From Burkholderiales bacterium (lineage in GTDB: Bacteria; Pseudomonadota; Gammaproteobacteria; Burkholderiales; Burkholderiaceae_E), in contig SYIM01000285.1 of the NCBI GenBank assembly GCA_005798775.1, positions 1 through 32,990 on the forward strand: a stretch of 32,990 nucleotides of DNA, read 5' to 3'. Below, in pieces: positions 3,709 through 31,053 of the stretch (position 1 is its first letter; every line of letters starts with the position of its first letter). The position numbers and the translations under genes were made by a program. A model generated the notes under the pieces. The model worked only from the letters and a program-made list of their open reading frames with translations. It was not told where the DNA came from and searched no databases.

Positions 3709-5388
3709 CTAGGGCGTACGCCCGTAGACCTCGAGCGCGCGCTCGACGCTAACGTAGCCGTCTTTCAAGTCGCGCTCGATCAGCGATCGGTCTCTTGCCT
3801 TAGGATCACCGTAACCGCCGCCACCGGCGGATTGAAGCCAGACCAGGGTGCCCTGATCCAGCGGAAGGTAGGGCGTTTTACTGGACAGCACGCGTTCTTT
3901 GGCAGTGCCGGGGTCCAGCACATAGCGCGCGGTGCTGCCTGGTAGGCCACCGAAAAGGCCCTGCGGCTGAGACCGGTGCCGATCGGCGCACAGGCAGATC
4001 GAGGCGCCATCGGCAAGTACCCTGAACACCCGACAGAATCCGTTGCCACCACGGAAGGTTCCTGCACCTCCCGTGTCTGCCACCACTTCGTAGCGTTCAA
4101 ACACGATGGGGTTCTCCATCTCATCGGCTTCAATCGGCACATGACCCGCATTGCCCGCGCCATAGCGGATCGCGTTGATGCCATCGCGGGTTGCGCGGGC
4201 ACCATAGGCGCCCGAGGATAATTCCAGCGTCAGGAAATAGCGCTTTTTCGCCTCTGAGCGGGAGTCGCTTCCGCCAATCACAGTGGTCCCTGTTGAGCCT
4301 GAACCACTGGCGAGGACTGAGCGGGGCGATGCGTCGGCTAGTGCTCTCATGACGGTATCGAGGACGCGATAGGTGACTTCGCCATAGCCCACCATGGATC
4401 CCGGCGGCTGCGCATCGCAGAGCGTTCCGGGCCGGGTAACGACTTTGACCGGGCGATAGCTGCCGGCATTCGGCGGATTCTCAGGGTCGGTGATCGACTT
4501 GATCGCATACTGAATACCGGAAATCGCCGAGGCGCGCGAACAGTTCATGCCGCCGCGCGACTGATTGGACGACCCACTGAGATCCACCGTGATGTCAGAG
4601 CCAGCGATGGTGACCTTGGCATCAATCCATTGGGCATCCTCGGTCAGTCCGTCGCCATCGATGCAATCGCGAGCGTGATAGACGCCGTCCTTGAAATCCG
4701 CGATTCGAACCCGCGTCAACTGCTCCGAGCGCGACAGAATTTCGCGCATGGCCTCGCGAATGGTGAGAAGCCCATACCGCGCGATGACTTCCGCCAGCCG
4801 TCTCTCGCCGCTGAAACAGGACGCATACTGCGCCCGCATATCACCCAGCGCTACCGAGGCGTTACGAACATTTCGTACAACCAGATCGACGAGCGGCTTC
4901 TGCAATTGGTCATTGACGAAGAGCTTGACCGGGGGGATGACGATGCCCTCCTGAATCAGCTCTCGGGTGGCAGGCGAGTAGCTTCCAGGGCCCATACCGC
5001 CAATGTCGGCCCAGTGACCACGGTTACACAGATAGCCGTAGAGCTCGCCCTCCCAAAACAGCGGTCTGACCAATAGAACATCGGGCAGGTGAGTCCCCCC
5101 CAGAAAGGGGTCATTGGTCATGAGGACATCGCCTGGCTTGATGTTGTCAGGCCCGATTCCGTCGATGAGCCCACGCAGTTGAAATGGCATCGTCGTGACG
5201 TGTATGGGGAAGCCAGTAGGGTCCTGGGCAACAATCTCGCCCTCTGCATCCATCACGCAACAGGACAAATCGCCCTGCTCTTTCCAGAGCTGGGTATAGG
5301 CGGCGCGCATGGTCATGAGCTTCATCTCATGCGACACACCGATCAACGCATTCTGAATCACAGCAAGGGTGAAAGCATCGACGGCCAT
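3709..5388 (-). CDS. hyuB: hydantoinase B/oxoprolinase family protein
   Basis: 559 aa; TNDPFLGGTHLPDVLLVRPLFWEGELYGYLCNRGHWADIGGMGPGS and C-terminal GGGGYGDPKARD typical of HyuB. Confidence 0.93.
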   Translation of the reverse strand: MAVDAFTLAVIQNALIGVSHEMKLMTMRAAYTQLWKEQGDLSCCVMDAEGEIVAQDPTGFPIHVTTMPFQLRGLIDGIGPDNIKPGDVLMTNDPFLGGTHLPDVLLVRPLFWEGELYGYLCNRGHWADIGGMGPGSYSPATRELIQEGIVIPPVKLFVNDQLQKPLVDLVVRNVRNASVALGDMRAQYASCFSGERRLAEVIARYGLLTIREAMREILSRSEQLTRVRIADFKDGVYHARDCIDGDGLTEDAQWIDAKVTIAGSDITVDLSGSSNQSRGGMNCSRASAISGIQYAIKSITDPENPPNAGSYRPVKVVTRPGTLCDAQPPGSMVGYGEVTYRVLDTVMRALADASPRSVLASGSGSTGTTVIGGSDSRSEAKKRYFLTLELSSGAYGARATRDGINAIRYGAGNAGHVPIEADEMENPIVFERYEVVADTGGAGTFRGGNGFCRVFRVLADGASICLCADRHRSQPQGLFGGLPGSTARYVLDPGTAKERVLSSKTPYLPLDQGTLVWLQSAGGGGYGDPKARDRSLIERDLKDGYVSVERALEVYGRTP

Positions 5389-5391
5389 GGC

Positions 5392-7449
5392 TCAGTATCC
5401 TCGCTTAAGGCTGATCAAAAGATTTCGATGGGTATCCACAACCAGCTCGGCCCCCGGGGGCAGCACCGTGGCTGAGGACAATTCCTGGATGATCGCGGGC
5501 CCCAACATCCGGTCCTCAGGCTCCAGACTTTCTCGGCGGATCACGCGGGTGGGCACCATGCGGTCGCCAAACCAGGCGTCTCTGACCGCTTCAAGACGAG
5601 CACCCTGTTTCTTGGTTCGGTCGGCAAGCAGGTTAGGCTTGGCCACGGCACCGATTGCACGCAGGCGAATGTTGACCAGTTCAACCGGCTCACCGGGGAC
5701 AGAATAGGTGTAGACCGCTTCGTGCTGCCGATGGAACTCAGCGGTAAAGGCCGCAATATCAGGCGCGCCTGTTCCGGTATCGGCATCCACACGAATATTG
5801 ATTTCAGTGGTCTGGCCTACATAGCGCAGGTCCATGCTGCGCTCGAAGCGGCTGGCCTCCGCTGCAACCCCTTCGAGCTCGAAGTCAGCCTGGGCACGCT
5901 TGCGCAAGGTCTCGAATTCGTTTGCGAGCGCCTGCGCATCGTTGACAACCAACACCTTGAGAACAGACCGGGAGTAGTCATGCGTGAAATCAGCGACCGA
6001 AATACCTCCCGCTGAAAACAGCCCTGGATTATTCGGTACCAGAATGCGCTCCATCCCAAGCTCTTCGGCGATCGAAAAGGCATGAATGGGCCCGCCACCG
6101 CCAAATGGACAAAGCTCAAAATCGCGCGGATCGGCGCCACGCTGCACCGATACAAACCGAATCGCCTCCGCCATCTGGCTGGCCGCCACCTTAAAGATGC
6201 CCGCCGCCGCCTGGTGCACACTCACACCCAGCGGGCCGGCAATGTCGCGCTCAATCACCGCGCGCGCGCGGTCCGGGAATAGCTTGACAGCGCCATCTGC
6301 GAAATCGTCGGCATCGATATAACCCAGAACCAGATTTACATCCGATAGCGTGACGTAATCGCCGCCCAATCCATAACAGGCGGGACCTGGATCAGACGAG
6401 GCGCTGTCGGGCCCCACCTTCAGGCGCCCCACGTCGTCGAGCCGCACAATGCTGCCGCCGCCCGCCCCCACCGTATGCACATCAAGCATAGGCGTAACCA
6501 CGGGAAAGTAATCGATTTCGCGCGCGGTGGTCGCCTCAGCCTTACCCTGACGCAGCAGACACACATCGAGGCTCGTGCCCCCCATGTCCATCGTGATCAG
6601 GTTCATGTGCCCGCTGACCCGCGCAAGATTGGCGGCGCCGACCACTGCACCGGCAGGCCCGGAGAGTAGCGTGGTAGCGGGGTTACGCATGACAAGGTCA
6701 GGACGTCCCACACCGCCGTTCGACTGGAAAATGAATAGTCGGTTATCCACCCGGATGTCGCGCAGACCCTCCATGAGTTTCTCGATATACAACCTGAGCA
6801 CTGGCGACACATACGCGGCAAATAGCGTGGTGCTGGTTCGGGGAAACTCGCGAAACTCAGGCAGCACATCTGACGAGGTCAGCACATCCATATTAGGGAG
6901 CGCCTGGCGGAGCGCATCGCGTAGCGTCTGTTCATGACGCGGCTCGAGAAATGAGAAAAGCAAACAGATGGCGACCGCCCGGACATCGCTTTCACGCACC
7001 TGATTAACGAGCCGTGCCACCTCCGTCGGCTCAAGCGCTTTGAGAATCTGGCCTTGCGCGTTTACCCGGCAGTCGGCTTCGAACCTGAGGTGTCTGGGCG
7101 CCAGCGGGCTGGGCTTATCCATCTGTACGCGATAAATGAGTTCTGCCGGTCGACTGAATCGACCGATTTCAATCACATCGCGAAAGCCTTTATTCGTGAT
7201 CAGCGCGATTCGGGCACCCTTTCGCTCAATCACCGCATTGGTGGCAATCGTGGTGCCATGACCGATGAAGCTCACTTCCTCGGGCTTCACCCCTGCCATT
7301 TCCATAACCCGACTGATTCCGCGTACGACAGTCGCATACCGGCGCCCAGGTTCGTTCAAGACCTTAGCGACCTGTACCGCGCCAGACGTTTCGTCAACCA
7401 AAACGACGTCTGTGAAGGTGCCCCCAACATCGATACCGATGCGAACCAT
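5392..7449 (-). CDS. hyuA: hydantoinase/oxoprolinase family protein (HyuA, N-methylhydantoinase A-type)
   Basis: MVRIGIDVGGTFTDVVLVDE...FIGHGTTIATNAVIERKGARIALITNKGFRDVIEIGR...MDMGGTSLDVCLL; start refined to 7449 from the 7482 ORF. Confidence 0.93.
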   Translation of the reverse strand: MVRIGIDVGGTFTDVVLVDETSGAVQVAKVLNEPGRRYATVVRGISRVMEMAGVKPEEVSFIGHGTTIATNAVIERKGARIALITNKGFRDVIEIGRFSRPAELIYRVQMDKPSPLAPRHLRFEADCRVNAQGQILKALEPTEVARLVNQVRESDVRAVAICLLFSFLEPRHEQTLRDALRQALPNMDVLTSSDVLPEFREFPRTSTTLFAAYVSPVLRLYIEKLMEGLRDIRVDNRLFIFQSNGGVGRPDLVMRNPATTLLSGPAGAVVGAANLARVSGHMNLITMDMGGTSLDVCLLRQGKAEATTAREIDYFPVVTPMLDVHTVGAGGGSIVRLDDVGRLKVGPDSASSDPGPACYGLGGDYVTLSDVNLVLGYIDADDFADGAVKLFPDRARAVIERDIAGPLGVSVHQAAAGIFKVAASQMAEAIRFVSVQRGADPRDFELCPFGGGGPIHAFSIAEELGMERILVPNNPGLFSAGGISVADFTHDYSRSVLKVLVVNDAQALANEFETLRKRAQADFELEGVAAEASRFERSMDLRYVGQTTEINIRVDADTGTGAPDIAAFTAEFHRQHEAVYTYSVPGEPVELVNIRLRAIGAVAKPNLLADRTKKQGARLEAVRDAWFGDRMVPTRVIRRESLEPEDRMLGPAIIQELSSATVLPPGAELVVDTHRNLLISLKRGY

Positions 7450-7489
7450 GACTGTATTTTCCCCGACCAACGGGTTTGACAAAGAGAAC

Positions 7490-7535: not shown

Positions 7536-8645
7536 TCACGCGCTCTTGACGCGAGCCCAGACCTCGATCCACTGCTGCAGATTGGGCGGCATGCGAAGCG
7601 GATAGTGCTTGGTGCTGCCATCCAAAATTCCGTAGCCCCAGGCCTGTTTGTCCGCTGCGCTTAAGTCCTGAGCACCCAGCGTAGAGGCCGACAGATAGCC
7701 CGATACCGTAGACAGACGCGATGCATAGGCCTTACCAAGCATTGCGTTGATCAGCGCATGCGCGCTGTCCTGGTTTTTCGAGTCTTTCGGAATGTAGGCG
7801 GGTTGGACAAAGGACAACACGCCCTCCTTACACCAGGCACTGCGAATCGGCATGCCCTTCTGCTGCAGGCCATAGCGAACAGGGATCGCACCGAAGGTGA
7901 CGACGATCTCGCCAGAGGCAAGCAGATTGGCGCCCTGAGCGAAACTGGTCCAAAGCGTGCGGACATTCTTCTTCTTGGCGATAAGGAACTTACCCACCTC
8001 GTTCAGTTCGGCGGTAGACATCTGCTCAGGCTGCTTGTTGCCCAGATAGAGGCCTGCGGCCATGATCATCTGGTGCGCAGTATCAAACCAGCCAATCCGG
8101 CCCGCATATTTTTCCTCAAAGATTGCTCCCCAAGACTGCGTGAACGGATCGTTCTCGGGCACCACATCACGGTTGTAGACCACCGTGTCATAGCCCCACA
8201 TCACTGGAATACCGTACACCTTGCCGTCACGACCCAGGATGTCGTCCTTGAAGGTGTTAGACACGTATTTGAAGTTGGGAATTTTGCTTAAGTCGAGCGC
8301 TGTGCATTTTTCCTGGCCTGCCGAGGCGCCAAGCACCGGACCTCGGGAGAAAATGCTGTGGCTCATCATCATGTTGTAGCGCCCCGTACCACCTGGCGCC
8401 ACCAGCCGCGCGACCACGTCAGTCGATGACTGAAACGGCGCGTCGTTGATCTTGCACTTTGCCTCTTCTTCGAGAATTCCCTTGAGCGGGCCGCTTACCA
8501 GGGCATTGGCAACCAGAATTTCAAGGGTCGGAGCTGATTGGGCGAGAGCCGCTCCGGACGTACCCGCCAAAACAGCTGTAGCAGCGCCTACCTTAAGGAA
8601 ACCACGGCGATCGGTGTCGCCGTTAACTCGGTTCAGGTGCTTCAC
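7536..8645 (-). CDS. extracellular solute-binding protein, polyamine-type (PotD-like) ABC transporter; Tat signal
   Basis: DTDRRGFLKVGAATAVLAGTSGAALAQ is a twin-arginine signal; GTG start at 8645 preceded by aaaggag on the minus strand; followed by two PotB/PotC-type permeases. Confidence 0.85.
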   Translation of the reverse strand: MKHLNRVNGDTDRRGFLKVGAATAVLAGTSGAALAQSAPTLEILVANALVSGPLKGILEEEAKCKINDAPFQSSTDVVARLVAPGGTGRYNMMMSHSIFSRGPVLGASAGQEKCTALDLSKIPNFKYVSNTFKDDILGRDGKVYGIPVMWGYDTVVYNRDVVPENDPFTQSWGAIFEEKYAGRIGWFDTAHQMIMAAGLYLGNKQPEQMSTAELNEVGKFLIAKKKNVRTLWTSFAQGANLLASGEIVVTFGAIPVRYGLQQKGMPIRSAWCKEGVLSFVQPAYIPKDSKNQDSAHALINAMLGKAYASRLSTVSGYLSASTLGAQDLSAADKQAWGYGILDGSTKHYPLRMPPNLQQWIEVWARVKSA

Positions 8646-8676
8646 TTGCGGACTCCTTTTGTGAACGGACAAAAAG

Positions 8677-9477
8677 CTAGCGGCGTTCAACTGCAGCCGC
8701 CAAACGACTGGCTCGACCTGTGAGCCAAAACCCCAGCGCGGCAATCAGCGCTGAAATACTCATGATGACTACCCCGACCGCCGGTAACTGCGGCGCAACC
8801 TGCTCGACGATCAGGAGCCAGAGATACACGGGCGTTGTGCGGTCGCTGCCTGCAACAAACAGCGTTCGGATGAACTCATCAAACGACAGGGTGAACGCAA
8901 ATAGCAGCGTGGCGATAAGCGCAGGCCGGATGAGCGGCAAGACGATCCGCAGAAAAACCACCCATGGGGTCGCCCCCAGGTCCATGGCCGCCTCCTCAAT
9001 TGAACGATCGAACTTATGCAGCCGCGGATAGAGCGTAAGAAAGGCAAAGGGCAGCACCCAGGTGACGTGCGCGATCAGCGACCCAGTCCAGAGACCGTAC
9101 GGCACGCCAGTGAGCCCAAGAAACACCAGCAACATGACGCCTGACACGATTCCTGGCGTGATGATGGGCAACAGAAAGGCGGGTATCACCCAGCCTCGGC
9201 CTGGAAACCGGTAGCGAAGCCCTAGCGCAGCCATCAGCGCCAGTGCTGTCGCGATCGTGCCTGAAGCCAAACCGACCGCGAAGCTGTTGATTAAGGCCTT
9301 TGCGAGTCCCCCGTCCTCGAACACTTCGCCATACCAGCGCAGCGTAAAACCTCGAAACGGAAAGCCCATCACCTCCGAATCGTTGAACGACAGGATGAAC
9401 AGCACCAGGATCGGCGCGTACAAGAACGCGAAAAACACGCCTACGTAACTACGCAGCAGCCAGCCTGAGGCGATCAT
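8677..9477 (-). CDS. ABC transporter permease, PotC-like
   Basis: MIASGWLLRSYVGVFFAFLYAPILVLFILSFN...; EEAAMDLGATPWVVFLRIVLPLIRPAL EAA loop; start ATGA-overlaps the preceding stop. Confidence 0.9.
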   Translation of the reverse strand: MIASGWLLRSYVGVFFAFLYAPILVLFILSFNDSEVMGFPFRGFTLRWYGEVFEDGGLAKALINSFAVGLASGTIATALALMAALGLRYRFPGRGWVIPAFLLPIITPGIVSGVMLLVFLGLTGVPYGLWTGSLIAHVTWVLPFAFLTLYPRLHKFDRSIEEAAMDLGATPWVVFLRIVLPLIRPALIATLLFAFTLSFDEFIRTLFVAGSDRTTPVYLWLLIVEQVAPQLPAVGVVIMSISALIAALGFWLTGRASRLAAAVERR

Positions 9478-10364
9478 CCCCGCTCTCCGACGAAAAGGCG
9501 CTGAAAACCAAATCGACGACTGGCCAGATACACGCACCCGAGCACCACCGCCATCAGCACCACCGATAGTGCTGCACCCAGCGGCCAGTTATTCGCATTG
9601 AGGAACTGACTGGCAATGATATTGCCGAACATCTGACCAGACGGACCACCAAGAAGTTGAGGTGTCACGTAAGCGCCGCAGGACAACAGAAAGACCATCG
9701 TGCAGCCAGACCACACGCCCGGCAATGAAAGCGGAAAGACCACGCGTCGAAATGTCTGAAACGGCGTCGCGCCCAGATCATAAGCCGCCTCAATCAGTGC
9801 GCGATCGATCTTTTCAAGGGAGAGATAAATCGGCAGTGTCATGTACAAGGTGTACACATAGACAAGCCCCACATACACCGCCGCCTCGTTATAGAGCAGC
9901 GCGTCCAGCGGCTTGTCGATGATTCCGAGAGACATCAGCGCCTGATTCACCAACCCTGTCCGGCCCAACATCGGCAGCCAGACAAAGGTACGAACGACAT
10001 AGCTCGTCCAGAATGGAAGAAACAGAAGCACAACGGCCAGCGTTCGTTTGTGCCCTTTAAGTCGGGCAATGAACATCGCCAGCGGATAAGACACCAGCAG
10101 CGCAAGGGCCGTGGTGATGAATGCGATTCGCAAAGTCTGCAGCAAAACCCTCGCATACACGGGTTCATCCACCAGCGACTGATAGCTCTTCAGTGACAGC
10201 TCAGAGCTCAGCCCGAACACCGATGCGGTCCAGAACGACACGCATGCGAAAAATATTAATGGTCCGATTGCAAATACCGCCAGCCAGAGAACTGCCGGGA
10301 CGACCAGAAGCCCTCCCAGTGACCACCGCGAACGCCTGACAGCCGATGAAGACATGGTGATCAA
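9474..10364 (-). CDS. ABC transporter permease, PotB-like
   Basis: IEAAYDLGATPFQTFRRVVFPLSLPGV EAA loop; multiple TM segments. Confidence 0.9.
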   Translation of the reverse strand: MITMSSSAVRRSRWSLGGLLVVPAVLWLAVFAIGPLIFFACVSFWTASVFGLSSELSLKSYQSLVDEPVYARVLLQTLRIAFITTALALLVSYPLAMFIARLKGHKRTLAVVLLFLPFWTSYVVRTFVWLPMLGRTGLVNQALMSLGIIDKPLDALLYNEAAVYVGLVYVYTLYMTLPIYLSLEKIDRALIEAAYDLGATPFQTFRRVVFPLSLPGVWSGCTMVFLLSCGAYVTPQLLGGPSGQMFGNIIASQFLNANNWPLGAALSVVLMAVVLGCVYLASRRFGFQRLFVGERG

Positions 10365-10367
10365 GGC

Positions 10368-10895
10368 CTACGTGCCAGACGCCTTCATGGACACCACCCT
10401 GCGCTCGAGATGAGTCCGCCATCCGCCGATGGCGATGATGTCCAGCAGCTGCGGCTCGAGCGGCTGATAGGTTCGATTGATGCTACGGCTGTGATTCGTG
10501 AACACGCCGCGTTCGAAATCGATTTCAATCTCATCGCCGGTTTCGACCAGCTCGGTCACGCCCGCGCACTGCGTGAGAAAAGGAATACCGGCATTGACCG
10601 CATTCCTGAAGCTTCCGCGCGGAATTGACTCTGCAACGAGACCCAAGCCATGGGCGCGAATACCGATGAATCCCTGAATATGAGGATTACCCTGGGCAAA
10701 GCGCTTACCCGCAACGATCACATCGCCCGGACGAACCTTGCGCGCGAACTCCGGGTCAACGCCGCTCATCAGCTGCGGACCAAGAACTGCAGGGTCGAGT
10801 TCGCGCTTGAGCGCAAATTCGAGCGGCATCATGTCGCCATCAATGCCGATGTTGTCGCCGAATTTCCAACAGCGGCCGCACAAGCGCCAATTCAT
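10368..10895 (-). CDS. 3-isopropylmalate dehydratase/aconitase-family small subunit (divergent, LeuD-like)
   Basis: RCWKFGDNIGIDGDMMPLEFA... swivel-domain start; GDVIVAGKRFAQGNPHIQGF; ATGA overlap with the large-subunit gene. Confidence 0.8.
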   Translation of the reverse strand: MNWRLCGRCWKFGDNIGIDGDMMPLEFALKRELDPAVLGPQLMSGVDPEFARKVRPGDVIVAGKRFAQGNPHIQGFIGIRAHGLGLVAESIPRGSFRNAVNAGIPFLTQCAGVTELVETGDEIEIDFERGVFTNHSRSINRTYQPLEPQLLDIIAIGGWRTHLERRVVSMKASGT

Positions 10896-12163
10896 CGCAT
10901 GAACTCCCTGGGGTCGGCAATTTCGCCCGCCACAGCCGATGCAGCCACGGTGGCTGCGCTGGCTAGATAAATCTCCGCTTTGGCAGAGCCGAGACGCCCG
11001 TAGTCATTGCGGGTGCCCGTATTGATGGACACTTCTTCGTCGGTAAGCGGGCCAATTTTTCCACCGGCACATACCCCACAGCCGGGCGCCGTAATCGCGG
11101 CGCCAGCATCCACGAACACCTTCATGATGCCTGCCTCTTCTGCCTGCGACAGCACCCGCTGCGTGCCCGGTGTTACAAAGAAACGCACACCAGGATGAAT
11201 GCGTCGATAGCGCAGAATATCAGCAGCCACCTGCAGATCCTCAAAGCTTGCCGCGGCGCATGAACCGATAAACGCGTGATGGATCTTGCGACCCCTTACC
11301 TGCGATACACCCACCACCTTGTCCGGTGTCGGAGGAACAGCAACCTGCGGCTCCGCGAGCGACAGGTCGAAGTCGATCACGCGACGAAAGTTTGCATCAG
11401 GATCGCTTTTGATCAGTAAAACGGGTTCGGTTGTACGCGTCGCGAGGTAGTCGAGCGTCTGCTGATCCGGCTCAACCAGAGCCGACTTGGCTCCAATTTC
11501 GATCGGCGTGTTACACAACACCTGACGGCCAGCGAAGCTCACCTGCGACAGCGCGGGGCCGCCATACTCGACAACACCATAGTCGACGTCATCGACCTCG
11601 AGTACCGCGATGAGTTTCTGGGCCACATCGCGCATTGAGGTTCCCGGCGAAAGCCGGCCATGCAGGTTGACCCGCACGGTGTGAGGAACCTTCAGCCAGA
11701 CTGAACCGCACGCGAGCACTTCGGTGATTTCGGTGACTACCGGAATTCCGAGGCACCCGAGCGCACCGTAGTTGGTCACGTGAATGTCATAAGCGATGGT
11801 GAGCATGCCAGGGCGGACGTAACCAAGCTCCATGGGAAATACGTGCCCATGTCCGCCGCGACCCACGTCGTAGAAATGCTTGATGCCAAGACGCTCTAAG
11901 ATTTTTCGGACCTGTCGTTGACGCTGTGCAGCCAGCGGGCTGGTTGCCACCGGCTCGTGATCGGTTGAGATAAGGAGCTTATCCGGCGCGTGAAGACGAT
12001 CGACGCCCAACTCATCCATCACTTTCGCAAAATTCACCACGTACCAGTCGTGCGTGGTGATGAGATCGGGCTCGGGGAAAATGATTTCGTCCTGCTTTAC
12101 CTGTCGACCGCATGCACGCGATAGGATTTTTTCGCTGAGCGTTTGACCCATGGCGTGTTTCAC
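10892..12163 (-). CDS. 3-isopropylmalate dehydratase/aconitase-family large subunit (divergent, LeuC-like)
   Basis: IGSCAAASFEDLQVAADILR and APGCGVCAGG supply the expected three Fe-S cysteines; TRNDYGRLG; paired with the small subunit. Confidence 0.87.
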   Translation of the reverse strand: MKHAMGQTLSEKILSRACGRQVKQDEIIFPEPDLITTHDWYVVNFAKVMDELGVDRLHAPDKLLISTDHEPVATSPLAAQRQRQVRKILERLGIKHFYDVGRGGHGHVFPMELGYVRPGMLTIAYDIHVTNYGALGCLGIPVVTEITEVLACGSVWLKVPHTVRVNLHGRLSPGTSMRDVAQKLIAVLEVDDVDYGVVEYGGPALSQVSFAGRQVLCNTPIEIGAKSALVEPDQQTLDYLATRTTEPVLLIKSDPDANFRRVIDFDLSLAEPQVAVPPTPDKVVGVSQVRGRKIHHAFIGSCAAASFEDLQVAADILRYRRIHPGVRFFVTPGTQRVLSQAEEAGIMKVFVDAGAAITAPGCGVCAGGKIGPLTDEEVSINTGTRNDYGRLGSAKAEIYLASAATVAASAVAGEIADPREFMR

Positions 12164-12798
12164 GGCGCAGCCCGCAAACCCACCACTACCGATACCGGCT
12201 CACCCGCGCGGATCCGCGCGTCACGGGCGATTTCCTTGTCACGTTGCTTGCGCGCGGCCTCAAGCGAAGCCTGGGCCTGACCAGCGGGAACCACTACGAC
12301 ACCGTCCGAGTCACCCCGCACAATATCGCCAGGATTGACAATCACGCCGCCCACGCTCACTGGAATGCCTGTCCATCCTGGGTGATTTTTCAGCGTGCCT
12401 TGAACACAGACCCCTGTCGCATACACGGGAAATTTCGCGTCACGAATTTCATCGATGTCTCGAAGCAAGCCGTTCGTGACAATACCCGCGATCCCGCGCA
12501 TCGTTGCCGCCAGGCTCGATGTGCCGCCCCACACCGGATGCACCCCGACGCTGCCGGTATCGATGACAAGCACCGACCCGGCTGGAGCCTGCTCCACCGC
12601 CCACAGCACCGCAGCGGTTTCGCAACCCAGGATACGAAGCGTATAGGCTGGCCCACAAAGGCGCAGGCGGTCCATCATGGGCCGTATGTCGGGGCTCATG
12701 CCGCCGGACCTCCCTTGCGCCTCATACAGCGTTGCCGCCGGGAACAACGCGATTTCCTTCAATGTTTCGGCCGAGACTTTCCCTACTTCCGATGACAT
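12160..12798 (-). CDS. RraA/HMG-aldolase family protein
   Basis: MSSEVGKVSAETLKEIALFPAATLYEAQGRSGGM...GIVTNGLLRDIDEIRDAKFPVYATG...PGDIVRGDSDGVVVVP; start refined to 12798 from 12942. Confidence 0.87.
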   Translation of the reverse strand: MSSEVGKVSAETLKEIALFPAATLYEAQGRSGGMSPDIRPMMDRLRLCGPAYTLRILGCETAAVLWAVEQAPAGSVLVIDTGSVGVHPVWGGTSSLAATMRGIAGIVTNGLLRDIDEIRDAKFPVYATGVCVQGTLKNHPGWTGIPVSVGGVIVNPGDIVRGDSDGVVVVPAGQAQASLEAARKQRDKEIARDARIRAGEPVSVVVGLRAAP

Positions 12799-12881
12799 GT
12801 AGACCCCACTGAGTGAGCAGTCGCGGACAGACCGCTGAATGCTGAAACCGCGCCCATCGCCTGATGCGCCTAGTGCTCTAC

Positions 12882-12899
12882 AACTTGATTGGACGAGTT
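12882..12899. promoter_or_regulatory. candidate operator, inverted repeat AACTTG-N6-CGAGTT
   Basis: 5 of 6 positions symmetric; lies directly downstream of the candidate minus-strand -10. Confidence 0.35.
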
Positions 12900-12900
12900 C

Positions 12901-12930
12901 AGAGTAGCGCTTGCGTCCGAGAAGCGTCAA
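12901..12930 (-). promoter_or_regulatory. candidate sigma70 promoter for the rraA-like...hyuB operon
   Basis: Minus strand TTGACG (12930-12925), 18-nt spacer, TACTCT (12906-12901). Confidence 0.4.
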
Positions 12931-13011
12931 GAAAGATTTCACTGCTGAACCCGTCGCTTGAGGCCCCCACCGGTAGGGCTTTCACGCCCCATCCGAAATA
13001 GACCCGGATGC

Positions 13012-13048: not shown

Positions 13049-13066
13049 CACCTATCCGGACAAGTG
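13049..13066. promoter_or_regulatory. candidate second operator, weaker inverted repeat CACCTA-N6-CAAGTG
   Basis: Same 6-6-6 architecture, 4 of 6 positions symmetric; directly downstream of the plus-strand -10. Confidence 0.25.
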
Positions 13067-14176
13067 AGCGCCATTCAGATGACTTCTTCACCCGCGGTCG
13101 AAATCATTGACGTATCCAAGCAGTTTGGCACCACCTCCGTCCTGAATCAGATCTCGCTCGAAGTCCGCAGGGGAGAGTTTCTTTCGCTATTGGGCCCAAG
13201 CGGCTGCGGCAAGACCACCCTTTTGCGAATCATTGCCGGGTTTGAGCATCAAAGCTCCGGCCAGGTGCGAATCGATGGCAAAGACGTCTCAGGCGTGCCG
13301 CCATTCGCGCGCCGCACCAACATGATTTTTCAGCACCTGGCGCTGTTCCCGCACATGAATGTGTTTGAGAATATTGCCTTTGGCCTTCGGATGAAGAAAG
13401 CAGATCGGGCCACAATCAAGCGACGGGTTGAACAGGCTCTCTCGATGGTGCAGTTGCAAGGCTACGATCAGCGCCTTCCCGAGCAGTTGTCGGGCGGGCA
13501 GCGCCAACGAATTGCGATAGCCCGCGCGCTGGTCAACGACCCATCGGTGCTTCTGCTCGATGAGCCCTTAGGTGCGCTCGATTTGCAGCTGCGGCTTCAA
13601 CTGCAGGTCGAGCTTAGGCAGTTGCATCGCTCGCTCGGAAGCACCTTCATTTTCGTCACGCACGATCAGACTGAGGCCATGACGATGTCCGATCGGATCG
13701 CGGTCTTCGACAACGGCCGAATCGTTCAGCTGGGTACACCTCAGGAAATCTACGAAACACCACAGACTCGCTTTGTGGCTCGTTTCGTTGGTCACGCCAA
13801 TCTTTTGGGTGGGCGGGTGACGGCAGTCGAATCAGCCGATCGCTGCATGGTGGAGCTCTCCCAGGGCGGTGAAATCATTAGCGCCATTCCGGGACCCCAT
13901 ATTAGCGTCGGGAGCGCGGTCACAGTAGTTCTTCGATACGGAAGCGTCGGCGTCCGGCAGCCCGGCTCGCAGCCCTCTTCGAACGATCGCCAAGTCGTTG
14001 CAACCATTCAGGAGCTCACCTACATGGGCGGTTTCCAGCGTGCCTGCGTTCGGACCTCGAATGGCCTTTCGCTTGTTGCTGATGCAGCCGTCAGCGAGCA
14101 GACTCGCCTCTGGACAGTTGGTACCCAGGTGGTCGCAGGCTGGGCCACCACGGATGCTCGCGCCCTATCCGACTGA
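13064..14176 (+). CDS. ABC transporter ATP-binding protein, PotA-like
   Basis: Walker A GPSGCGKTTLL, LSGGQRQRIAIARAL signature, LLLDEPLGALD Walker B, C-terminal TOBE-like domain; GTG start. Confidence 0.93.
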   Translation: MSAIQMTSSPAVEIIDVSKQFGTTSVLNQISLEVRRGEFLSLLGPSGCGKTTLLRIIAGFEHQSSGQVRIDGKDVSGVPPFARRTNMIFQHLALFPHMNVFENIAFGLRMKKADRATIKRRVEQALSMVQLQGYDQRLPEQLSGGQRQRIAIARALVNDPSVLLLDEPLGALDLQLRLQLQVELRQLHRSLGSTFIFVTHDQTEAMTMSDRIAVFDNGRIVQLGTPQEIYETPQTRFVARFVGHANLLGGRVTAVESADRCMVELSQGGEIISAIPGPHISVGSAVTVVLRYGSVGVRQPGSQPSSNDRQVVATIQELTYMGGFQRACVRTSNGLSLVADAAVSEQTRLWTVGTQVVAGWATTDARALSD

Positions 14177-14187
14177 CCTGCAGACGG

Positions 14188-14979
14188 TTGCGCCACATGC
14201 CCACCAACAGGCTCGAATCACAGCGGCCAACCCGATCGCTCAGGCAGGATAAGTCTCGACCCCGCTACAGCGAAGTTGCCGACTTACTCAGGCTCGCCAT
14301 TCTCACTGGTAGGCATCCGGCCGGCTCGCTATTGCCGAGCGAGAGCGATCTGTGCAGGCAATTTTCCATAAGTCGGCACACCGCCCGCGAAGCAATACGA
14401 GTCCTCCAACTCCGAGGCCTCGTCTCGCGCCATCAGGGGCGAGGCACCGAGGTGCTGCAGGCACAGCAGATCACCAAAGTCGCGCGGGTGCTCGGCTCTT
14501 TGGAAGACGTTGAGCGTCATGGCCGAGACACCCGGCTGGTGGGCTTGGAGTCACATTGGGTCGAGGTTGACCGCGAGCTTGCCTCATTACTGGGCGCTAC
14601 CGTAGGTGAGCGGCTTCTTAAAATTCAGGCCTACCGGGAACCGCGCGACCAATCATCTAGCTTCCCGCGCGCGTGGAATGAATCGTTTATTCGCGAGCAG
14701 TACGCCGGTATCCGAGATCAGCTCCAACCCTGGCAGGGCGCTGTGTATTCGCTCATTGAAAAGCTTTATAGCGAGCGGGTCAGTTCGGTTCGCCAGGAGG
14801 TGTCGGCGCTAAATTTGCCCGACACCATCGCTCATCGCCTGTCCGTCAAGCCTGGAACCGCGGGGCTTCGAGTCAAGCGCAGCTACTTTAACGATACGGG
14901 CGTGGCTATGATTATCGGGATCAACACCTACATTGGCCTGCAGTTCTCGCTGATCATGGATATTCGCTCACACGACTGA
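14188..14979 (+). CDS. GntR family transcriptional regulator (HutC subfamily, UTRA domain)
   Basis: PRYSEVADLLRLAILTGRHPAGSLLPSESDLCRQFSISRHTAREAIRVLQLRGLVSRHQGRGTEV winged HTH plus a UTRA-like effector domain. Confidence 0.9.
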   Translation: MRHMPTNRLESQRPTRSLRQDKSRPRYSEVADLLRLAILTGRHPAGSLLPSESDLCRQFSISRHTAREAIRVLQLRGLVSRHQGRGTEVLQAQQITKVARVLGSLEDVERHGRDTRLVGLESHWVEVDRELASLLGATVGERLLKIQAYREPRDQSSSFPRAWNESFIREQYAGIRDQLQPWQGAVYSLIEKLYSERVSSVRQEVSALNLPDTIAHRLSVKPGTAGLRVKRSYFNDTGVAMIIGINTYIGLQFSLIMDIRSHD

Positions 14980-16219: not shown

Positions 16220-17377
16220 ATGAGTCGGTTATCTGGATTGAAATTGGGTGCCGCGGTAGCAGTAGCGCTCGCCGCTTTCGCCGCGCCTGCCCTGGCGCAG
16301 AACGTCATCCGCGTGGGCGTGCTTATGCCTATCTCCGGACCCGCATCCTATTTTGGTGTGCAGGGCAAGGAAGGTATCGACATGGCGCTAGAGCAGGTCA
16401 ATCGCGGTAATGGCATCAACGGCACCAAGATACAGGTGCAATATGAGGATTCCGCCTGTAGCCCATTGCAGGCGACCAATACCGTCAAGCGCGTATTGGA
16501 GCAATTCAAGCCACACATCGTGGTTGGTGAGGAGTGTTCGGATGCGTCGCTTGCGATCGCACCGATCCTGGAGCAGGCCAAAGTACCAATGCTCAATGCC
16601 GGTTCCGCCACCAACCAGTTGACCGAGTCGGGCTACAAGTACGTGTTCCGGATTTTCCCCAATGCGCAACAGCAGGGGGTGCCGTTAGGGCGTAACGCGT
16701 ATAACAAGCTTGGCGCCCGCACCGCGGTGTTGTTGCACGAGAAGACCAATGCCGGCGTCGACAATGCGGACGGCTTTGCCAAGGAGTTCGAGGCGGCCGG
16801 CGGCAAAATCGTCGCTCGTATCGATTTCGGCCGTGATGTGAACGACTTCACCGCGATTGCTACGCGCATCGCCTCGCTCGGCAAGATCGACGTCCTGCCG
16901 ACCTTCGGCCTTGAGGGTCAGCAGGTGCGGCTTTCGCAGGCACTGGCCCAGGCCAAGGTGGTCAAGGGCGGCGGCGGCAATGCCATTCAGATGGGCTCGA
17001 TCTGGTTGCCCTGGGGTTACGACGCTAAAGCCGGCCAGGCATCGGTGGGCTACATCCGCATTGTGCAGTTCGATCCCACCGAGAAGCGCAAGATCGTGAC
17101 CGACTTCAATGCGGCGTTCCGTGCCAAGTACGGCGCTGACAAGACGCCCACGCACATCAATGCACACGCTTATGACACCATTCTCCTCATCGCTGAGGCG
17201 GTGCGCCGTGGCGCCAAGGATTCGGAGTCGCTGCGTGAGGGCTTGTCGAAAATGAAGGATGTCGAGGTCACAACGGGCAAAATCACCTTCGATGCCAAGG
17301 GCCAGAATTCAGACCTGTCGGTGATCCACTTTGTCGAGACCCAGCCTGACCTGTCTTGGAAAGCCCTGCCCTGGTAG
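16220..17377 (+). CDS. branched-chain amino acid-type ABC transporter substrate-binding protein (LivK-like)
   Basis: 385 aa; signal peptide, VIRVGVLMPISGPASYFGVQGKEGIDMALEQVNRGNGINGTKIQVQYEDSACSP; RBS aaggagg. Confidence 0.92.
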   Translation: MSRLSGLKLGAAVAVALAAFAAPALAQNVIRVGVLMPISGPASYFGVQGKEGIDMALEQVNRGNGINGTKIQVQYEDSACSPLQATNTVKRVLEQFKPHIVVGEECSDASLAIAPILEQAKVPMLNAGSATNQLTESGYKYVFRIFPNAQQQGVPLGRNAYNKLGARTAVLLHEKTNAGVDNADGFAKEFEAAGGKIVARIDFGRDVNDFTAIATRIASLGKIDVLPTFGLEGQQVRLSQALAQAKVVKGGGGNAIQMGSIWLPWGYDAKAGQASVGYIRIVQFDPTEKRKIVTDFNAAFRAKYGADKTPTHINAHAYDTILLIAEAVRRGAKDSESLREGLSKMKDVEVTTGKITFDAKGQNSDLSVIHFVETQPDLSWKALPW

Positions 17378-17450
17378 AGCAGGTAGGCGCCACCCGGTGC
17401 GCGTATGACCGGCGGCATCCGGTGGCGCCGATGAGCAACAGGGTGCCGGA

Positions 17451-17520
17451 CGTTCCCGCGCATGCAGGAACCAGGCAAATGTCCATTCAATCCAACTGGA
17501 CTCCCGCTTGCGCGGGAACG
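17451..17520. repeat. REP/BIME-like element: inverted pair of palindromic units
   Basis: cgttcccgcgca (17451-17462) and tgcgcgggaacg (17509-17520) are perfect inverted repeats; each end also folds locally (GTTCC...GGAAC; CCCGC-TTGC-GCGGG). Confidence 0.65.
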
Positions 17521-17531
17521 ATAAAGCCCGA

Positions 17532-18449
17532 GTGACTGATTTCCTCACACTGATTTTGCAGCAATCGATCAACGGCATCTATCTCGGCTGCCTGTACGTG
17601 ATCGTAGCCTTGGGTCTGACCCTGATCTACGGGGTGATGAACCAGATCAATTTCGCGCATGCCGACTTTGTCACCGTCGGTGCGTTCGTCGCGTTCTTCG
17701 CTGCCACCCGGTTCCTCACTAAGATGCTGGGCCTGTCCGACACCACCGGCTACCTCCTGTCGATCTTCCTCGGGTTGGGAGCAGGCGCGCTGCTCGGGTT
17801 AATGGTCAATGCCCTGGTGTTCGCGCCCTTGCGCAATCGCGGCGACGAATTGCGCCCACTGATCGCCACCATCGGCGTATCGGTATTGCTGGAAAACGGG
17901 CAACTCGCGCTGTTCGGGCCGATTCCCTTCCAGTTCGATTCACCCTTCGCGCAGCAGACCATCCGCTTTGGCAAGATTTTCTTTTCGCAGCAGAGCCTCT
18001 TGGTAGTGATCGTGGCGGCGCTGGCGATCGGCGCGTTGTATGTGTTTATGAAGTTCACCTACCTTGGCAAGGCCTTGCGCGCGGTGTCGCAAGACCGTGA
18101 GACCGCAGGCTTGATGGGCATCAACGAGACTTTTCTCATTGGCCTGACCATCGTCATCGCGTCTGCCTTGGCAGGCATGGCCGGCGCCCTCCTGGGACCG
18201 GTGATTGTGCTTACTCCCTTCGCTGGGGTAAGCCTGATCGTCAAGGCTTTCGCCATCGTGATCATCGGCGGTTTCGGCAACATGGAAGGTACCATTGTCG
18301 CTGGCATCCTGGTCGGCCTGATCGAGGCCTTTACAGTGCAATATCTGGGTTCGGGCCTGATCGATCTGGTGGTGTTCTCACTGCTCCTCATCATGCTGGT
18401 GGTCAGGCCCACCGGGCTCATCGCCGAGCGGCGCGAGGAGAACGTATGA
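17532..18449 (+). CDS. livH: branched-chain amino acid ABC transporter permease LivH
   Basis: VTDFLTLILQQSINGIYLGCLYVIVALGLTLIYGVMNQINFAHADFVTVGAF; GTG start at 17532 placed after the repeat element rather than TTG 17508. Confidence 0.92.
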   Translation: MTDFLTLILQQSINGIYLGCLYVIVALGLTLIYGVMNQINFAHADFVTVGAFVAFFAATRFLTKMLGLSDTTGYLLSIFLGLGAGALLGLMVNALVFAPLRNRGDELRPLIATIGVSVLLENGQLALFGPIPFQFDSPFAQQTIRFGKIFFSQQSLLVVIVAALAIGALYVFMKFTYLGKALRAVSQDRETAGLMGINETFLIGLTIVIASALAGMAGALLGPVIVLTPFAGVSLIVKAFAIVIIGGFGNMEGTIVAGILVGLIEAFTVQYLGSGLIDLVVFSLLLIMLVVRPTGLIAERREENV

Positions 18450-18471
18450 ACGCACTGGCAACCCGCAGACG

Positions 18472-19500
18472 GTGCCCGACATGAGGGGGCTTGCCGCAGC
18501 GCTGCGGCGAGATGTGCGCTGGCCCTGGTACCTAGGCGCCATGTTCGTGCTGCTGCTTTTGCCGGTCGTTCTGGGTACGCCTTACTGGCGCGGCATCTTG
18601 GTCGTGTGCGCCATGAACGTGCTGCTGGCGATATCGCTCAACCTGGTGATCGGCTATACCGGGCAGCTCAACCTGGGGCAGTCGGGGTTTTTTGCCATTG
18701 GCGCCTACGTCACTACGGTACTGCTCAAGAGCTACGGCTGGAATTTCTGGCTCGCTTGCGTGGCGGCGGTGCTTGCTTCCGGTCTGGTGGGCTTGCTGCT
18801 GGCTGCGTTTGCCGCACGCCTGCGCGGGCACTACCTGGGCATCGCCTCGCTCGGGTTTGCCGTGATCGTTTATCAGATACTGATCAACTGGGAAAGCGTC
18901 ACCCAAGGTGTGCGCGGAATCTACGGTATCAGACCGCCACCGCTTGCAGTACCAGGCTTCCCGGATCTTAATTTCGGCAACCCGGCTGCGCTGTTCTACC
19001 TCGTGGCGGGCATTGCGCTCGTGGTCTATCTGCTTCTCGATAACCTGTTGCGTTCACCAATCGGTGAGACCCTGCGCGCGATTCGCGAGGACGAGATTTC
19101 AGCCGCCTCGCTGGGTGTCCATGGCGCCAAATGGAAAGCTTTCTCCTTCAGCCTGTCAGCGGCCATCGCTGGCTTAGCGGGCTGCTTCTACCCGGGTTTT
19201 GTCGGCACCCTGGTGCCGGACGCGTTCAATATCGTCGAGTCGTTCACCATGCTGGCCATGGTGGTTGTAGGCGGCATGGGCACAATGATCGGCCCGGTGA
19301 TCGGCGCGATCGTACTGACCTTCCTGCCAGAACTGCTGCGCGGGTTTGGTGACCTGCGCCTGATCGTCTACGGCCTGGCGCTCACGCTGGTGGTGTTGTT
19401 CATGCCCGGCGGCATGGTGCAGGCCTGGCAATTGCTGCGTGCTCGCTTCAAAGGTGTGGCTACAAGACGCGCAAGCGATACCAGCGGGGGGGGTCGGTGA
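18472..19500 (+). CDS. livM: branched-chain amino acid ABC transporter permease LivM
   Basis: LLAISLNLVIGYTGQLNLGQSGFFAIGAYVTTVLL; start GTG 18472 or ATG 18481. Confidence 0.92.
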   Translation: MPDMRGLAAALRRDVRWPWYLGAMFVLLLLPVVLGTPYWRGILVVCAMNVLLAISLNLVIGYTGQLNLGQSGFFAIGAYVTTVLLKSYGWNFWLACVAAVLASGLVGLLLAAFAARLRGHYLGIASLGFAVIVYQILINWESVTQGVRGIYGIRPPPLAVPGFPDLNFGNPAALFYLVAGIALVVYLLLDNLLRSPIGETLRAIREDEISAASLGVHGAKWKAFSFSLSAAIAGLAGCFYPGFVGTLVPDAFNIVESFTMLAMVVVGGMGTMIGPVIGAIVLTFLPELLRGFGDLRLIVYGLALTLVVLFMPGGMVQAWQLLRARFKGVATRRASDTSGGGR

Positions 19501-20279
19501 ACGCGCTGTTCGAAGCCCGCGAACTCAGAAAGAGTTTCGGCGGGGTCAAGGCAGTAGCAGGCATTTCGATTGAGGTGCCAGAAAAATCGATCTTTGCAGT
19601 AATCGGCCCCAATGGTGCCGGTAAGTCGACGCTGATGAACCTCTTGTCAGGCACCTACCAGCCCGATTCGGGCGAACTGCGTTTCGCCGGCCGGGATCTC
19701 ACCGGACTACCCGCGCATCGCCGTGCGCGGCTCGGGTTGGCTCGCACCTTCCAGAAAATCCGCCTGTTCAAGCAACTCTCCCTTCTCGATAATGTGTTGG
19801 CAGGTTTTCATATTCATCATCAGGTCCCAGCCTGGCAATACCTGCTGCCGGGCGCAACCTTCTGGCGCGACTGGACCCGTTGTCGTGAAGAAGGCCTGGC
19901 GCTGCTCGATTTTGTAGGCCTGGGCGATTTGGCTGCACAACGGGCCGGATCCCTGGCCTACGGGCAACAGCGGATGCTCGAGATCGCACGCGCGCTGGCG
20001 ACGCGACCCAAACTTTTCATGCTCGATGAACCAGCCGCTGGCCTCAACGCCGCCGAGGTCGCTTTCCTGCTGCAGCGCTTGCGCGACATTCGGGAGCGCG
20101 GCATCACCGTGGTGGTGGTCGAGCACCATCTGGATCTGGTGATGAAGGTCGCCGATCATGTGTTCGTGATGGACCACGGCGAATTCCTTTTCGAAGGCCC
20201 GCCCAAGGCGGTGCAGAGTAACCCGAGTGTGATCGAAGCCTATCTGGGCGGCGAATTTGAAAGTGGAGCGCTGGTCTGA
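19497..20279 (+). CDS. livG: branched-chain amino acid ABC transporter ATP-binding protein LivG
   Basis: Walker A GPNGAGKSTLMN, LAYGQQRMLEIARAL, MLDEPAAGLN; GTGA overlap with livM. Confidence 0.93.
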   Translation: MNALFEARELRKSFGGVKAVAGISIEVPEKSIFAVIGPNGAGKSTLMNLLSGTYQPDSGELRFAGRDLTGLPAHRRARLGLARTFQKIRLFKQLSLLDNVLAGFHIHHQVPAWQYLLPGATFWRDWTRCREEGLALLDFVGLGDLAAQRAGSLAYGQQRMLEIARALATRPKLFMLDEPAAGLNAAEVAFLLQRLRDIRERGITVVVVEHHLDLVMKVADHVFVMDHGEFLFEGPPKAVQSNPSVIEAYLGGEFESGALV

Positions 20280-20998
20280 TGGCGGCCCTGTTGCAAGTCG
20301 AGGGAATCGAACTAGCCTATGGCGACGTGGCGGCCTGTCGCGACATTTCATTCCACGTTGGCGAAGGCGAGATCGTTACGCTGATTGGCGCAAATGGTGC
20401 AGGCAAGTCGACCACCTTGCGCGCGGTAGCTGGAGCCATGATGCCGCGCCGCGGGCGCATCCTGTTCCGCGGCAACGAAGTCACGCGTATGCGCTCTCAC
20501 GAGCGCCTGCTGGCCGGTATCGCCCTAGTACCGGAAGGGCGGCGCGTATTCCCTTTCCTGACTGTCCGCGAAAACCTGGAAATGGGCGGCTTCAAATACC
20601 GCGCCGACAAGGCGAAGACCCGCATGCTGATCGAACGCATGATGGACATGTTTCCTCGCCTGCGCGAGCGCTCCGCGCAGCGCGCCGGTACCCTATCGGG
20701 CGGCGAGCAGCAAATGTTGGTACTGTGCCGCGCGTTGATGTCGGAGCCGGTGCTCCTGTGCATGGATGAACCGTCGCTGGGCCTGGCACCGTTGGTGGTG
20801 CTGGAGATCTTCAAGAGCATTCGCGCCATCAATCGCGCCGGCACCAGCGTGCTGCTGGTGGAGCAGAATGCGCGCTACGCGCTCGAGACTGCCAGCCGAG
20901 GTTACGTACTGCAGACTGGCGCGATCATTGCATCCGGATCGTGTGCGGCGCTGAAACAAGACGAGCGGGTCAAGGAAGCCTATCTCGGGCGTAGCTGA
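20279..20998 (+). CDS. livF: branched-chain amino acid ABC transporter ATP-binding protein LivF
   Basis: GANGAGKSTTLRAVAG, LSGGEQQMLVLCRALMSEPVLLCMDEPSLGLAP; TGATG overlap with livG. Confidence 0.93.
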   Translation: MAALLQVEGIELAYGDVAACRDISFHVGEGEIVTLIGANGAGKSTTLRAVAGAMMPRRGRILFRGNEVTRMRSHERLLAGIALVPEGRRVFPFLTVRENLEMGGFKYRADKAKTRMLIERMMDMFPRLRERSAQRAGTLSGGEQQMLVLCRALMSEPVLLCMDEPSLGLAPLVVLEIFKSIRAINRAGTSVLLVEQNARYALETASRGYVLQTGAIIASGSCAALKQDERVKEAYLGRS

Positions 20999-21001
20999 CA
21001 A

Positions 21002-21016
21002 GGCCCGCGACGGGCC
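21002..21016. terminator. short GC hairpin after livF (weak terminator candidate, no T-tract)
   Basis: GGCCCG-CGA-CGGGCC. Confidence 0.25.
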
Positions 21017-21176
21017 GCCGCGCCGCATTGACGGGTTTTGAAACACCGTCGCCCGCCTCACGGAATCTCGTGTTGCAAAACGTCCGAATCCAATCGATGC
21101 CTGCGTTCGTTCGCGACGGACCAGGGGTCAACAATCCTAGGTTCTGTAGTAGCCTGATACCTTTGAGGAATTCGCC

Positions 21177-22196
21177 ATGAACAACCCGATCGTCACGCGT
21201 CGCACCGCTCTGGCCCTTGGGGGGATGGGCGTTCTGTCCTGCACCATCGGCGATCTCCGCGCACAGGCGGCGCGCCGCATGACCTATGTGACGCCCTTCT
21301 CACATATCCTCGCTTTTGCCGATGTGCTGCACGCTAAGGGCGGCGGCTATTTTGAGCGCGAGGGCCTCGATGTCACGATCGAGCAGGGGCGTGGCTCGGC
21401 GATGGCGGTGCAGCAGGTACTCGGAGGCGGTGCGCTGCTGTCGCGCACTGGCGTAGGTGACCATATCCGCGCCTCCTCGCGCCCCGGTGGTAATGATCTA
21501 GTGGCCGTTGGTACGATTAGCCAGGGCTCTCCCTTCTATGTAATTAGTACCGTCGCAAAGCCGATACGCACGCCGGAGGAAATGGTCGGCAAAACCATCG
21601 GTATTCTCTCCGTCGGTGGCGCCACCGAGATCGTGCTCGATGTAATGCTGCAGGCGCGCGGTGTTGATCGCACGCGCGTGGCGCGGCAGACTGCGCCGAA
21701 CTCACCGGCTGGGCTGCAGTTGATCGAACAGGGACGGATCGACGCCTATATCGTCTCAGCCGGTGTGCCTGTGGCGTTGCAGGCCATGAATACGCCGCAT
21801 GTTTCCTGGAACACCGACACGGTCGCGCCGATCCCGGGTCAGTGCTACATCGCGCGACGTCCCACGCTGTCACAGAACGGCGATGTGGTGGTGCGATTCC
21901 TTCGTGCGGTCAAGCGCTCTCTGGACGACATGCTGGCCGATACCACCTTGACGAAGACGCTCTCAAATCTGAAGAGTTTCGAGATTGCGGAGATGAGTAA
22001 TACGGCTTTGGCGCCGCTGATCCTGCGCAACGAGATGCAGTTCTGGCTGACAGCTGGCCGGGATAATCTGCTGCGCAACGTGCCCGAGCGCTGGCAGCGT
22101 GGCTACGACCTGATGGCCGCCGCGGGCTTCGCGCCCCCGAGCGTGCGTGCCGAGACCTTGTTCACGAACGAATTCGTGGACCGCGCTCGAGCTTGA
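21177..22196 (+). CDS. ABC transporter substrate-binding protein, nitrate/sulfonate/taurine type (SsuA/NMT1-like)
   Basis: TRRTALALGGMGVLSC signal; FADVLHAKGGGYFEREGLDVTIEQGRGSAMAVQQVLGG; followed by SsuB- and SsuC-like genes. Confidence 0.87.
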   Translation: MNNPIVTRRTALALGGMGVLSCTIGDLRAQAARRMTYVTPFSHILAFADVLHAKGGGYFEREGLDVTIEQGRGSAMAVQQVLGGGALLSRTGVGDHIRASSRPGGNDLVAVGTISQGSPFYVISTVAKPIRTPEEMVGKTIGILSVGGATEIVLDVMLQARGVDRTRVARQTAPNSPAGLQLIEQGRIDAYIVSAGVPVALQAMNTPHVSWNTDTVAPIPGQCYIARRPTLSQNGDVVVRFLRAVKRSLDDMLADTTLTKTLSNLKSFEIAEMSNTALAPLILRNEMQFWLTAGRDNLLRNVPERWQRGYDLMAAAGFAPPSVRAETLFTNEFVDRARA

Positions 22197-23612: not shown

Positions 23613-23614
23613 CA

Positions 23615-26456: not shown

Positions 26457-26458
26457 GC

Positions 26459-29087: not shown

Positions 29088-29127
29088 CCAGGCTCCTGGA
29101 AGGCTAAAAGCGTTGCTCAGCCGCGTA

Positions 29128-30453: not shown

Positions 30454-30463
30454 GGGTACAGCC

Positions 30464-30994: not shown

Positions 30995-31053
30995 GTTGGC
31001 TCAAACGGTCCATGCGGACACGTTGCAGTGCATGCGGACTGTTGGGTTCAGAG

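Follow-up and report, generated by a model that had tools for sequence, protein, structure and literature searches.

DmdAB (2,3-dimethylmalate dehydratase) is a two-subunit hydro-lyase of the LeuCD type and belongs to an N-heterocycle pathway. Aconitase-family enzymes other than AcnX have a nearly invariant active site, with identity at more than 15 of its 20 residues (PMC8184944). In mitochondrial aconitase, Ser642 is the general base, and Asp165, His167 and His147 form a hydrogen-bond network at Fe4 (PMC8184944). The gene pair described here, acnL and acnS, keeps the network residues and the cluster cysteines and has lost the base. The window, that is, the whole stretch of DNA analysed, comprises 32,990 nucleotides of contig SYIM01000285.1 from a Burkholderiales bacterium. 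Coordinates of the pair, of its diagnostic residues and of the neighboring genes are given in Table 1.

Table 1. Features of the acnLS locus (window coordinates; residues in brackets numbered as in mitochondrial aconitase).
Feature	Position	Strand	Evidence or remark
AcnL, aconitase-superfamily large subunit, 423 aa	10892..12163	-	PF00330, 1.2e-76
AcnS, LeuD-type small subunit, 175 aa, without GSSREHA	10368..10895	-	phmmer to 3vba, 2.2e-29
AcnL D126-I127-H128 (Asp165 and His167 kept, Ser166 replaced)	11780..11788	-	alignment columns
AcnL G104-H105-G106-H107 (clade-specific GGHGHxFP; H107 = His147, H105 new)	11843..11854	-	alignment
AcnS N70-P71-H72 (replacing Ser642-Ser643-Arg644)	10680..10688	-	7/7 in subclade A
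AcnS R31 (new Arg, specificity loop after the lost Arg580 position, E26)	10803..10805	-	alignment
RraA/HMG-CHA aldolase-family protein	12160..12942	-	PF03737, 2.1e-37; overlaps AcnL start by 4 nt
PotB-type ABC permease	9474..10364	-	domain and family models
PotC-type ABC permease	8677..9537	-	domain and family models
PotD/PotF-like solute-binding protein	7536..8744	-	domain match
HyuA, hydantoinase/oxoprolinase/caprolactamase alpha type	5392..7482	-	ATP-site Asp motifs, residues 18 and 299
HyuB, hydantoinase B type	3709..5388	-	metal-ligand motifs THLPD, GHWAD present
PotA-type ABC ATPase, divergent	13064..14176	+	domain and family models
GntR/UTRA regulator, divergent	14188..14979	+	domain match

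Both open reading frames are intact and overlap by 4 nt. AcnL scores 259 bits against PF00330 (cut-off, 28.7); no Pfam model reports the small subunit in a Pfam search of AcnS, and the best NCBIfam matches of AcnS are LeuD-type models (up to 7.7e-31). Above cut-off, only the general subfamily NF001614/PRK00402 is matched, by AcnL (397 vs. 385), and neither subunit scores high enough for any curated equivalog model. The LeuCD equivalogs remain below theirs (TIGR02083, 331/610.65; TIGR00170, 174.8/560.25; TIGR02084, 86.9/245.85), the homoaconitase (HACN) models lie far under (309 vs. 550; 90 vs. 230), and the AcnX model NF051439 gives 18.4 for a cut-off of 700, the cysteines being instead of the mitochondrial aconitase type. 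AcnS falls narrowly short of the LeuD/DmdB small-subunit family TIGR02087 (107.0; cut-off, 108.95). AcnLS is, in other words, an aconitase-superfamily member that is not recognized as LeuCD, HACN, aconitase or AcnX.

AlphaFold2 models of AcnL (pLDDT 90.9) and AcnS (pLDDT 97.0) found their fold matches in 4kp1 (the best PDB match of AcnL, TM 0.91) and 3vba (TM 0.89), respectively. The large subunits of isopropylmalate isomerase and homoaconitase match the AcnL model best (TM 0.91), and aconitase X is distant from it (TM about 0.6). A sequencing or frameshift artefact was ruled out, as two other genomes of the same genus carry agreeing orthologs. Between orthologs, dN is 0.08–0.17 and dS is about 1.7–2.2, near saturation; the low dN against a nearly saturated dS indicates purifying selection on acnLS.

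The relationships of the pair were examined in FastTree trees of 137 large/small pairs, a set whose choice was biased by the query and that lacks DmdAB. AcnLS belongs to a 34-pair clade, with support values of 0.995 for the concatenated alignment, 0.98 for the large subunit and 0.945 for the small subunit, and no pair of this clade has the canonical loop. Together with seven further pairs also devoid of Ser642, this clade makes up a wider group of 41 (support 0.998). In these trees the pair falls into no characterised specificity group, and the motifs singled out in the initial annotation define the 34-pair clade, which divides into subclades A (the window type), L022/L113, B, C and D. Subclade A comprises 7 loci from alpha- and beta-Proteobacteria, with large subunits 62–89% identical to that of the window. 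In the explanation that we consider best, AcnLS would represent an uncharacterised branch of the aconitase superfamily, on its LeuCD/homoaconitase side.

AcnS matches at E 1e-28 were found in 0/398 other genomes of the phylum sample, AcnL matches at E 1e-110 in no further genome of the class sample, and no relative with >60% identity on plasmids. A literature search, with subscription papers mostly outside its reach, found no paper describing the clade, and none on a HyuAB, RraA and LeuCD cluster or on related hydratases.

Other heterodimers were encountered along the way. Besides LeuC-type genes, the source genome holds three more (contigs C235, C292 and C42; loci L018, L024 and L029): one belongs to subclade B, one to a sister clade with HFDGH/GHPHY motifs that adjoins a PEP mutase/ICL protein, and one has a standard SSREH loop. 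A second aconitase-type large subunit was seen in L052, L065, L072, L073, L099 and about 25 other loci (e.g., L073:7511-8989), with the three Fe-S cysteines replaced (GGHGGGR, PPSTGSNQA) and GSDSHTPVHG intact. Its partner small subunit reads SSGRA vs. SSREH, it mostly adjoins a Cys-bearing pair, and it occurs in Actinobacteria, Firmicutes, Spirochaetes, Deltaproteobacteria and Burkholderiales. The small subunits L081:8953-9438 and L091:8977-9438, outside the clade, have GASDEH for GSSREH, as read in L081.

Active-site residues are numbered after mitochondrial aconitase, mapped via alignments with the M. jannaschii proteins and aconitase; the 137 pairs were aligned, and the 64 other Cys-bearing pairs outside the wider clade served as comparison set. 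The cluster cysteines, recognized from the outset in the IGSCAAAS and GCGVC segments of the translation, are AcnL C302, C362 and C365 (Cys358, Cys421 and Cys424), and all three are found in 34/34 clade pairs. In a loose motif search, some subclades had seemed to be missing the first cysteine, but the alignment revealed this as an artefact. Asp100, His101, His147, Asp165, His167, Glu262 and Arg452 are retained in the clade; in subclade A, all seven pairs have Asp100, His101, His147, Asp165, His167, Asn258 and Glu262, as well as Arg447 and Arg452.

The other side of the active site is different. Where the large subunit usually has a GDSHT-type segment, AcnL reads AYDIHVTNYGALGCLG, and the initial annotation had taken this substrate signature to be missing. 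The statement holds for Ser166, which is lost, but not for Asp165 and His167, which persist as D126 and H128. In the small subunit, the presence of VAGKRFAQGNPHIQGF in place of the FGxGSSREHA-type loop was borne out by the AcnS translation. The Ser166 position is I, T or V in 7/7 subclade A pairs and S in 64/64 other Cys-bearing pairs; in the latter, Ser642 is present in 62/64, Arg644 in 61/64 and Arg447 in 64/64. Both Ser642 and Ser166 are missing from 34/34 clade pairs, the Arg644 position is occupied by His (20 pairs) or Lys (14 pairs), and in the seven pairs of subclade A Arg580 is changed to E and Asn446 to T. A further departure, beyond those noted at first, is GGHGHVFP in AcnL where relatives have G-I-x-H-Q: H105 is found in 34/34 clade members and in 0/64 of the comparison set. 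Two additional residues accompany it, AcnL N131 (33/34 clade pairs) and AcnS R31 (Arg in 34/34), and all three are absent or nearly so outside the 34-pair clade.

As read from the alignments, the active site combines an intact cluster half with a remodelled base/carboxylate half. Since all seven members of subclade A keep the replacements, these are not due to chance; and since one fixed set of residues is lost in the clade and another gained, a changed function seems indicated rather than decay. AcnLS probably carries a cluster and is presumably active; judged by alignment, AcnS H72 and AcnL H105 would be located near that cluster.

The surroundings of the pair are catabolic, related neither to leucine biosynthesis nor to the TCA cycle. 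On the minus strand, the gene order is RraA, AcnL and AcnS, with overlaps at 12160-12163 and 10892-10895, followed by PotB, PotC, PotD, HyuA and HyuB. The nearest solved relative of the RraA-family protein is the CHA aldolase 3noj (3.9e-27). The catalytic residues of HyuAB are ATP-site Asp motifs in the A subunit and an Asp-His-Asp-His metal site in the B subunit (PMC8453981), and these motifs are present here (D18 and D299 in HyuA; THLPD and GHWAD in HyuB).

Elsewhere in the window, a separate catabolic cluster (16220-27904, +) has branched-chain-type and NMT1-type ABC transporters, an isochorismatase-family hydrolase, an acyl-CoA dehydrogenase, an amidohydrolase and an AMP-binding ligase. 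The acyl-CoA dehydrogenase ORF (23707-25599, +) has 630 aa, with domain matches at residues 255–622 only; because its first 750 nt overlap an ABC permease ORF (23615-24460), translation probably begins much further downstream. A TRAP transporter DctPQM and a GFO/IDH/MocA oxidoreductase lie at 28080-32136 (-).

Across loci, the RraA gene stands directly beside acnLS in 7/7 members of subclade A, and the proteins retain the motif G-X20-R-D-X2-E in all seven; a G-X20-R-D-X2-E/D motif is reportedly that of the RraA-type class II pyruvate aldolase (Mazurkewich and coworkers, 2014). RraA is contiguous with AcnLS in 8/8 loci when L113 is counted with subclade A, against 0/28 others, and HyuAB is present in 10/13 loci of A, L113 and C and in 0/23 of B, D and the rest, although Fisher values for both associations are too optimistic because the loci share ancestry. 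L113, a more distant pair, has both RraA and HyuAB. Six of the seven subclade A loci contain HyuAB and PotBCD, in differing gene orders; the seventh, L035, has AcnLS-RraA without either, so that HyuAB and PotBCD are not obligatory. Subclade A has HyuA proteins of three or more subfamilies with mutual identities of about 35%, and this variety suggests that the lower module is constant and the ring-opening upper part variable. In L031, L032 and L033 (e.g., L032:2-6764), a second HyuAB-PotBCD set of another subfamily (HyuA about 35% identical) is divergently oriented, facing the AcnLS operon, at the place where the window has PotA and GntR. Neighbors differ in the remaining branches: a beta-keto acid cleavage enzyme (BKACE) in 3/5 loci of subclade C, a ThDP enzyme and amidases in subclade B, TctC carboxylate receptors in subclades B and D, and a PEP mutase/ICL protein in the sister clade. 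BKACE, the ThDP enzyme and the PEP mutase/ICL protein are, like the aldolase, of C-C cleaving types, which speaks for the reading favored below.

The proposal that neither isopropylmalate nor citrate is the substrate of the pair is supported by the motif-defined clade, the lack of an equivalog match and the catabolic gene context, and a different specificity of AcnLS can be considered well, if indirectly, supported. Of the substrate site, Asp165, His167, Arg447 and Arg452 persist in subclade A. Because the catalytic base Ser642 has been removed as well, the chemistry may differ in addition to the specificity. The reading that we favor, at a confidence slightly short of even, is that AcnLS is an active heterodimeric Fe-S hydratase yielding a tertiary 4-hydroxy-2-oxo acid, from which RraA would release pyruvate, both acting after the opening of an N-heterocycle by HyuAB. 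Judging from the operon, HyuAB would perform ATP-dependent opening of an imported lactam, hydantoin or imide. Later steps would lead to an unsaturated 2-oxo dicarboxylate of the 4-substituted 2-oxopent-3-enedioate or 4-methylene-2-oxoglutarate type; AcnLS would add water onto this unsaturated 2-oxo acid, and cleavage of the resulting tertiary 4-hydroxy-2-oxo acid by the RraA-family aldolase would yield pyruvate and a second oxo acid. In AcnLS, the cluster may still chelate a carboxylate and a hydroxyl on one carbon, and AcnS H72 or AcnL H105 would be the likeliest new residue to take over the proton transfer carried out elsewhere by Ser642.

HMG and CHA both carry a C(OH)(COO−) unit at a tertiary carbon, which is the unit bound on iron (Fe4) by aconitases. 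Both are known substrates of RraA-type aldolase (PMC5065237). Because aldolase substrates contain the very unit chelated on Fe4, our proposal takes the matching unsaturated 2-oxo acid as the substrate of AcnLS and its hydration product as that of RraA. A hypothetical substrate that fits all three enzyme roles is 4-methylene-2-oxoglutarate derived from 4-methylene-5-oxoproline. The window operon harbors no deaminase or transaminase linking HyuAB to the 2-oxo acid. RraA-family proteins can serve otherwise, as oxaloacetate decarboxylase or as RNase E regulator, and this counts against the aldolase role.

One alternative, unlikely but still worthy of attention, is that AcnLS is a DmdAB-like hydratase or isomerase acting on a substituted acid of the malate type (dialkylmaleate-, citraconate- or maleate-like), with RraA as an oxo-acid decarboxylase or as a later-acting enzyme. 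Retention of Arg447 and Arg452 in subclade A agrees with such a substrate, as does the PEP mutase/ICL-family lyase adjoining the sister clade; a lyase of this type catalyzes the step after DmdAB in nicotinate fermentation. However, Ser642, Arg580, Arg644 and Ser166 are lost, the score for TIGR02087 is narrowly insufficient, and the constant partner here is RraA, not a PEPM/ICL lyase.

We deem it rather improbable that the substrate is an amide, ureido or amino-acid derivative coming straight from HyuAB, in which case the arginine loss would reflect an uncharged or cationic distal group. The invariant new R31 in the specificity loop suggests continued binding of an acidic group, and TctC carboxylate receptors at subclade B and D loci argue in the same direction, even if HyuAB occurs in those 10/13 loci of three subclades, amidases adjoin subclade B, a D-Ser dehydratase-type PLP protein adjoins L113, and the window has a polyamine-type transporter. 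Very little likelihood is left for a pseudoenzyme or regulatory protein, catalytically dead after base loss: Ser642, the base of mitochondrial aconitase (PMC8184944), is indeed missing from all clade members, but the cluster ligands and the residues on the iron side do not vary, neither subunit has been lost, the two have new invariant His and Arg residues in common, and the genes evolve under strong purifying selection and lie in operons for enzymes. Finally, it is hardly tenable that AcnLS is a usual LeuCD or homoaconitase whose motifs have drifted: the general PRK00402 model is passed (397 vs. 385) but no equivalog is, the replacements are fixed in the clade, and other large-subunit genes of the same genome score far higher to PF00330 (521 and 475 bits).

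Returning to AcnLS as a hydratase paired with RraA, a broader and more tentative view is that the branch may have swapped the serine base for His or Lys, added a second cluster-side His and diversified into hydratases of unsaturated 2-oxo acids in N-heterocycle pathways with differing C-C cleaving partners. A clade with normal similarity to LeuCD and normal cluster cysteines that lacks Ser642 implies that a conserved cluster half is compatible with a rebuilt catalytic half, and AcnLS offers a direct test case for base swapping in aconitase-class enzymes. Annotation by similarity would label these genes as 3-isopropylmalate dehydratase; their function is very likely different.

The isopropylmalate/citramalate isomerase LeuCD of M. 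jannaschii (4kp1 and 3vba) shares with AcnLS the two-subunit architecture and the fold (TM 0.91 and 0.89), the three cluster cysteines and the equivalents of Asp165, His167, His147 and Glu262. In contrast to LeuCD, AcnLS has no SSREHA loop, Ser166 or Arg580 equivalent, has gained GGHGH, Asn131 and Arg31, and is encoded in a catabolic operon. Homoaconitase HacAB (4kp2 and 2pkp) has the same architecture, and its large subunit is the second-best fold match to AcnL; like AcnS, it has an Arg in the specificity loop (YLRT in the alignment), but it keeps the SSREQ loop. DmdAB is a functional parallel, compared here through the small-subunit family model TIGR02087. The 4-oxalomesaconate hydratases GalB and LigJ act before an HMG/CHA-type aldolase, as proposed for AcnLS; the analogy is one of role only, as they belong to unrelated protein families and have no Fe-S cluster. 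AcnX is, like AcnLS, a branch with a rebuilt active site (PMC8184944); unlike AcnLS, it retains a serine base and differs in the cluster ligands.
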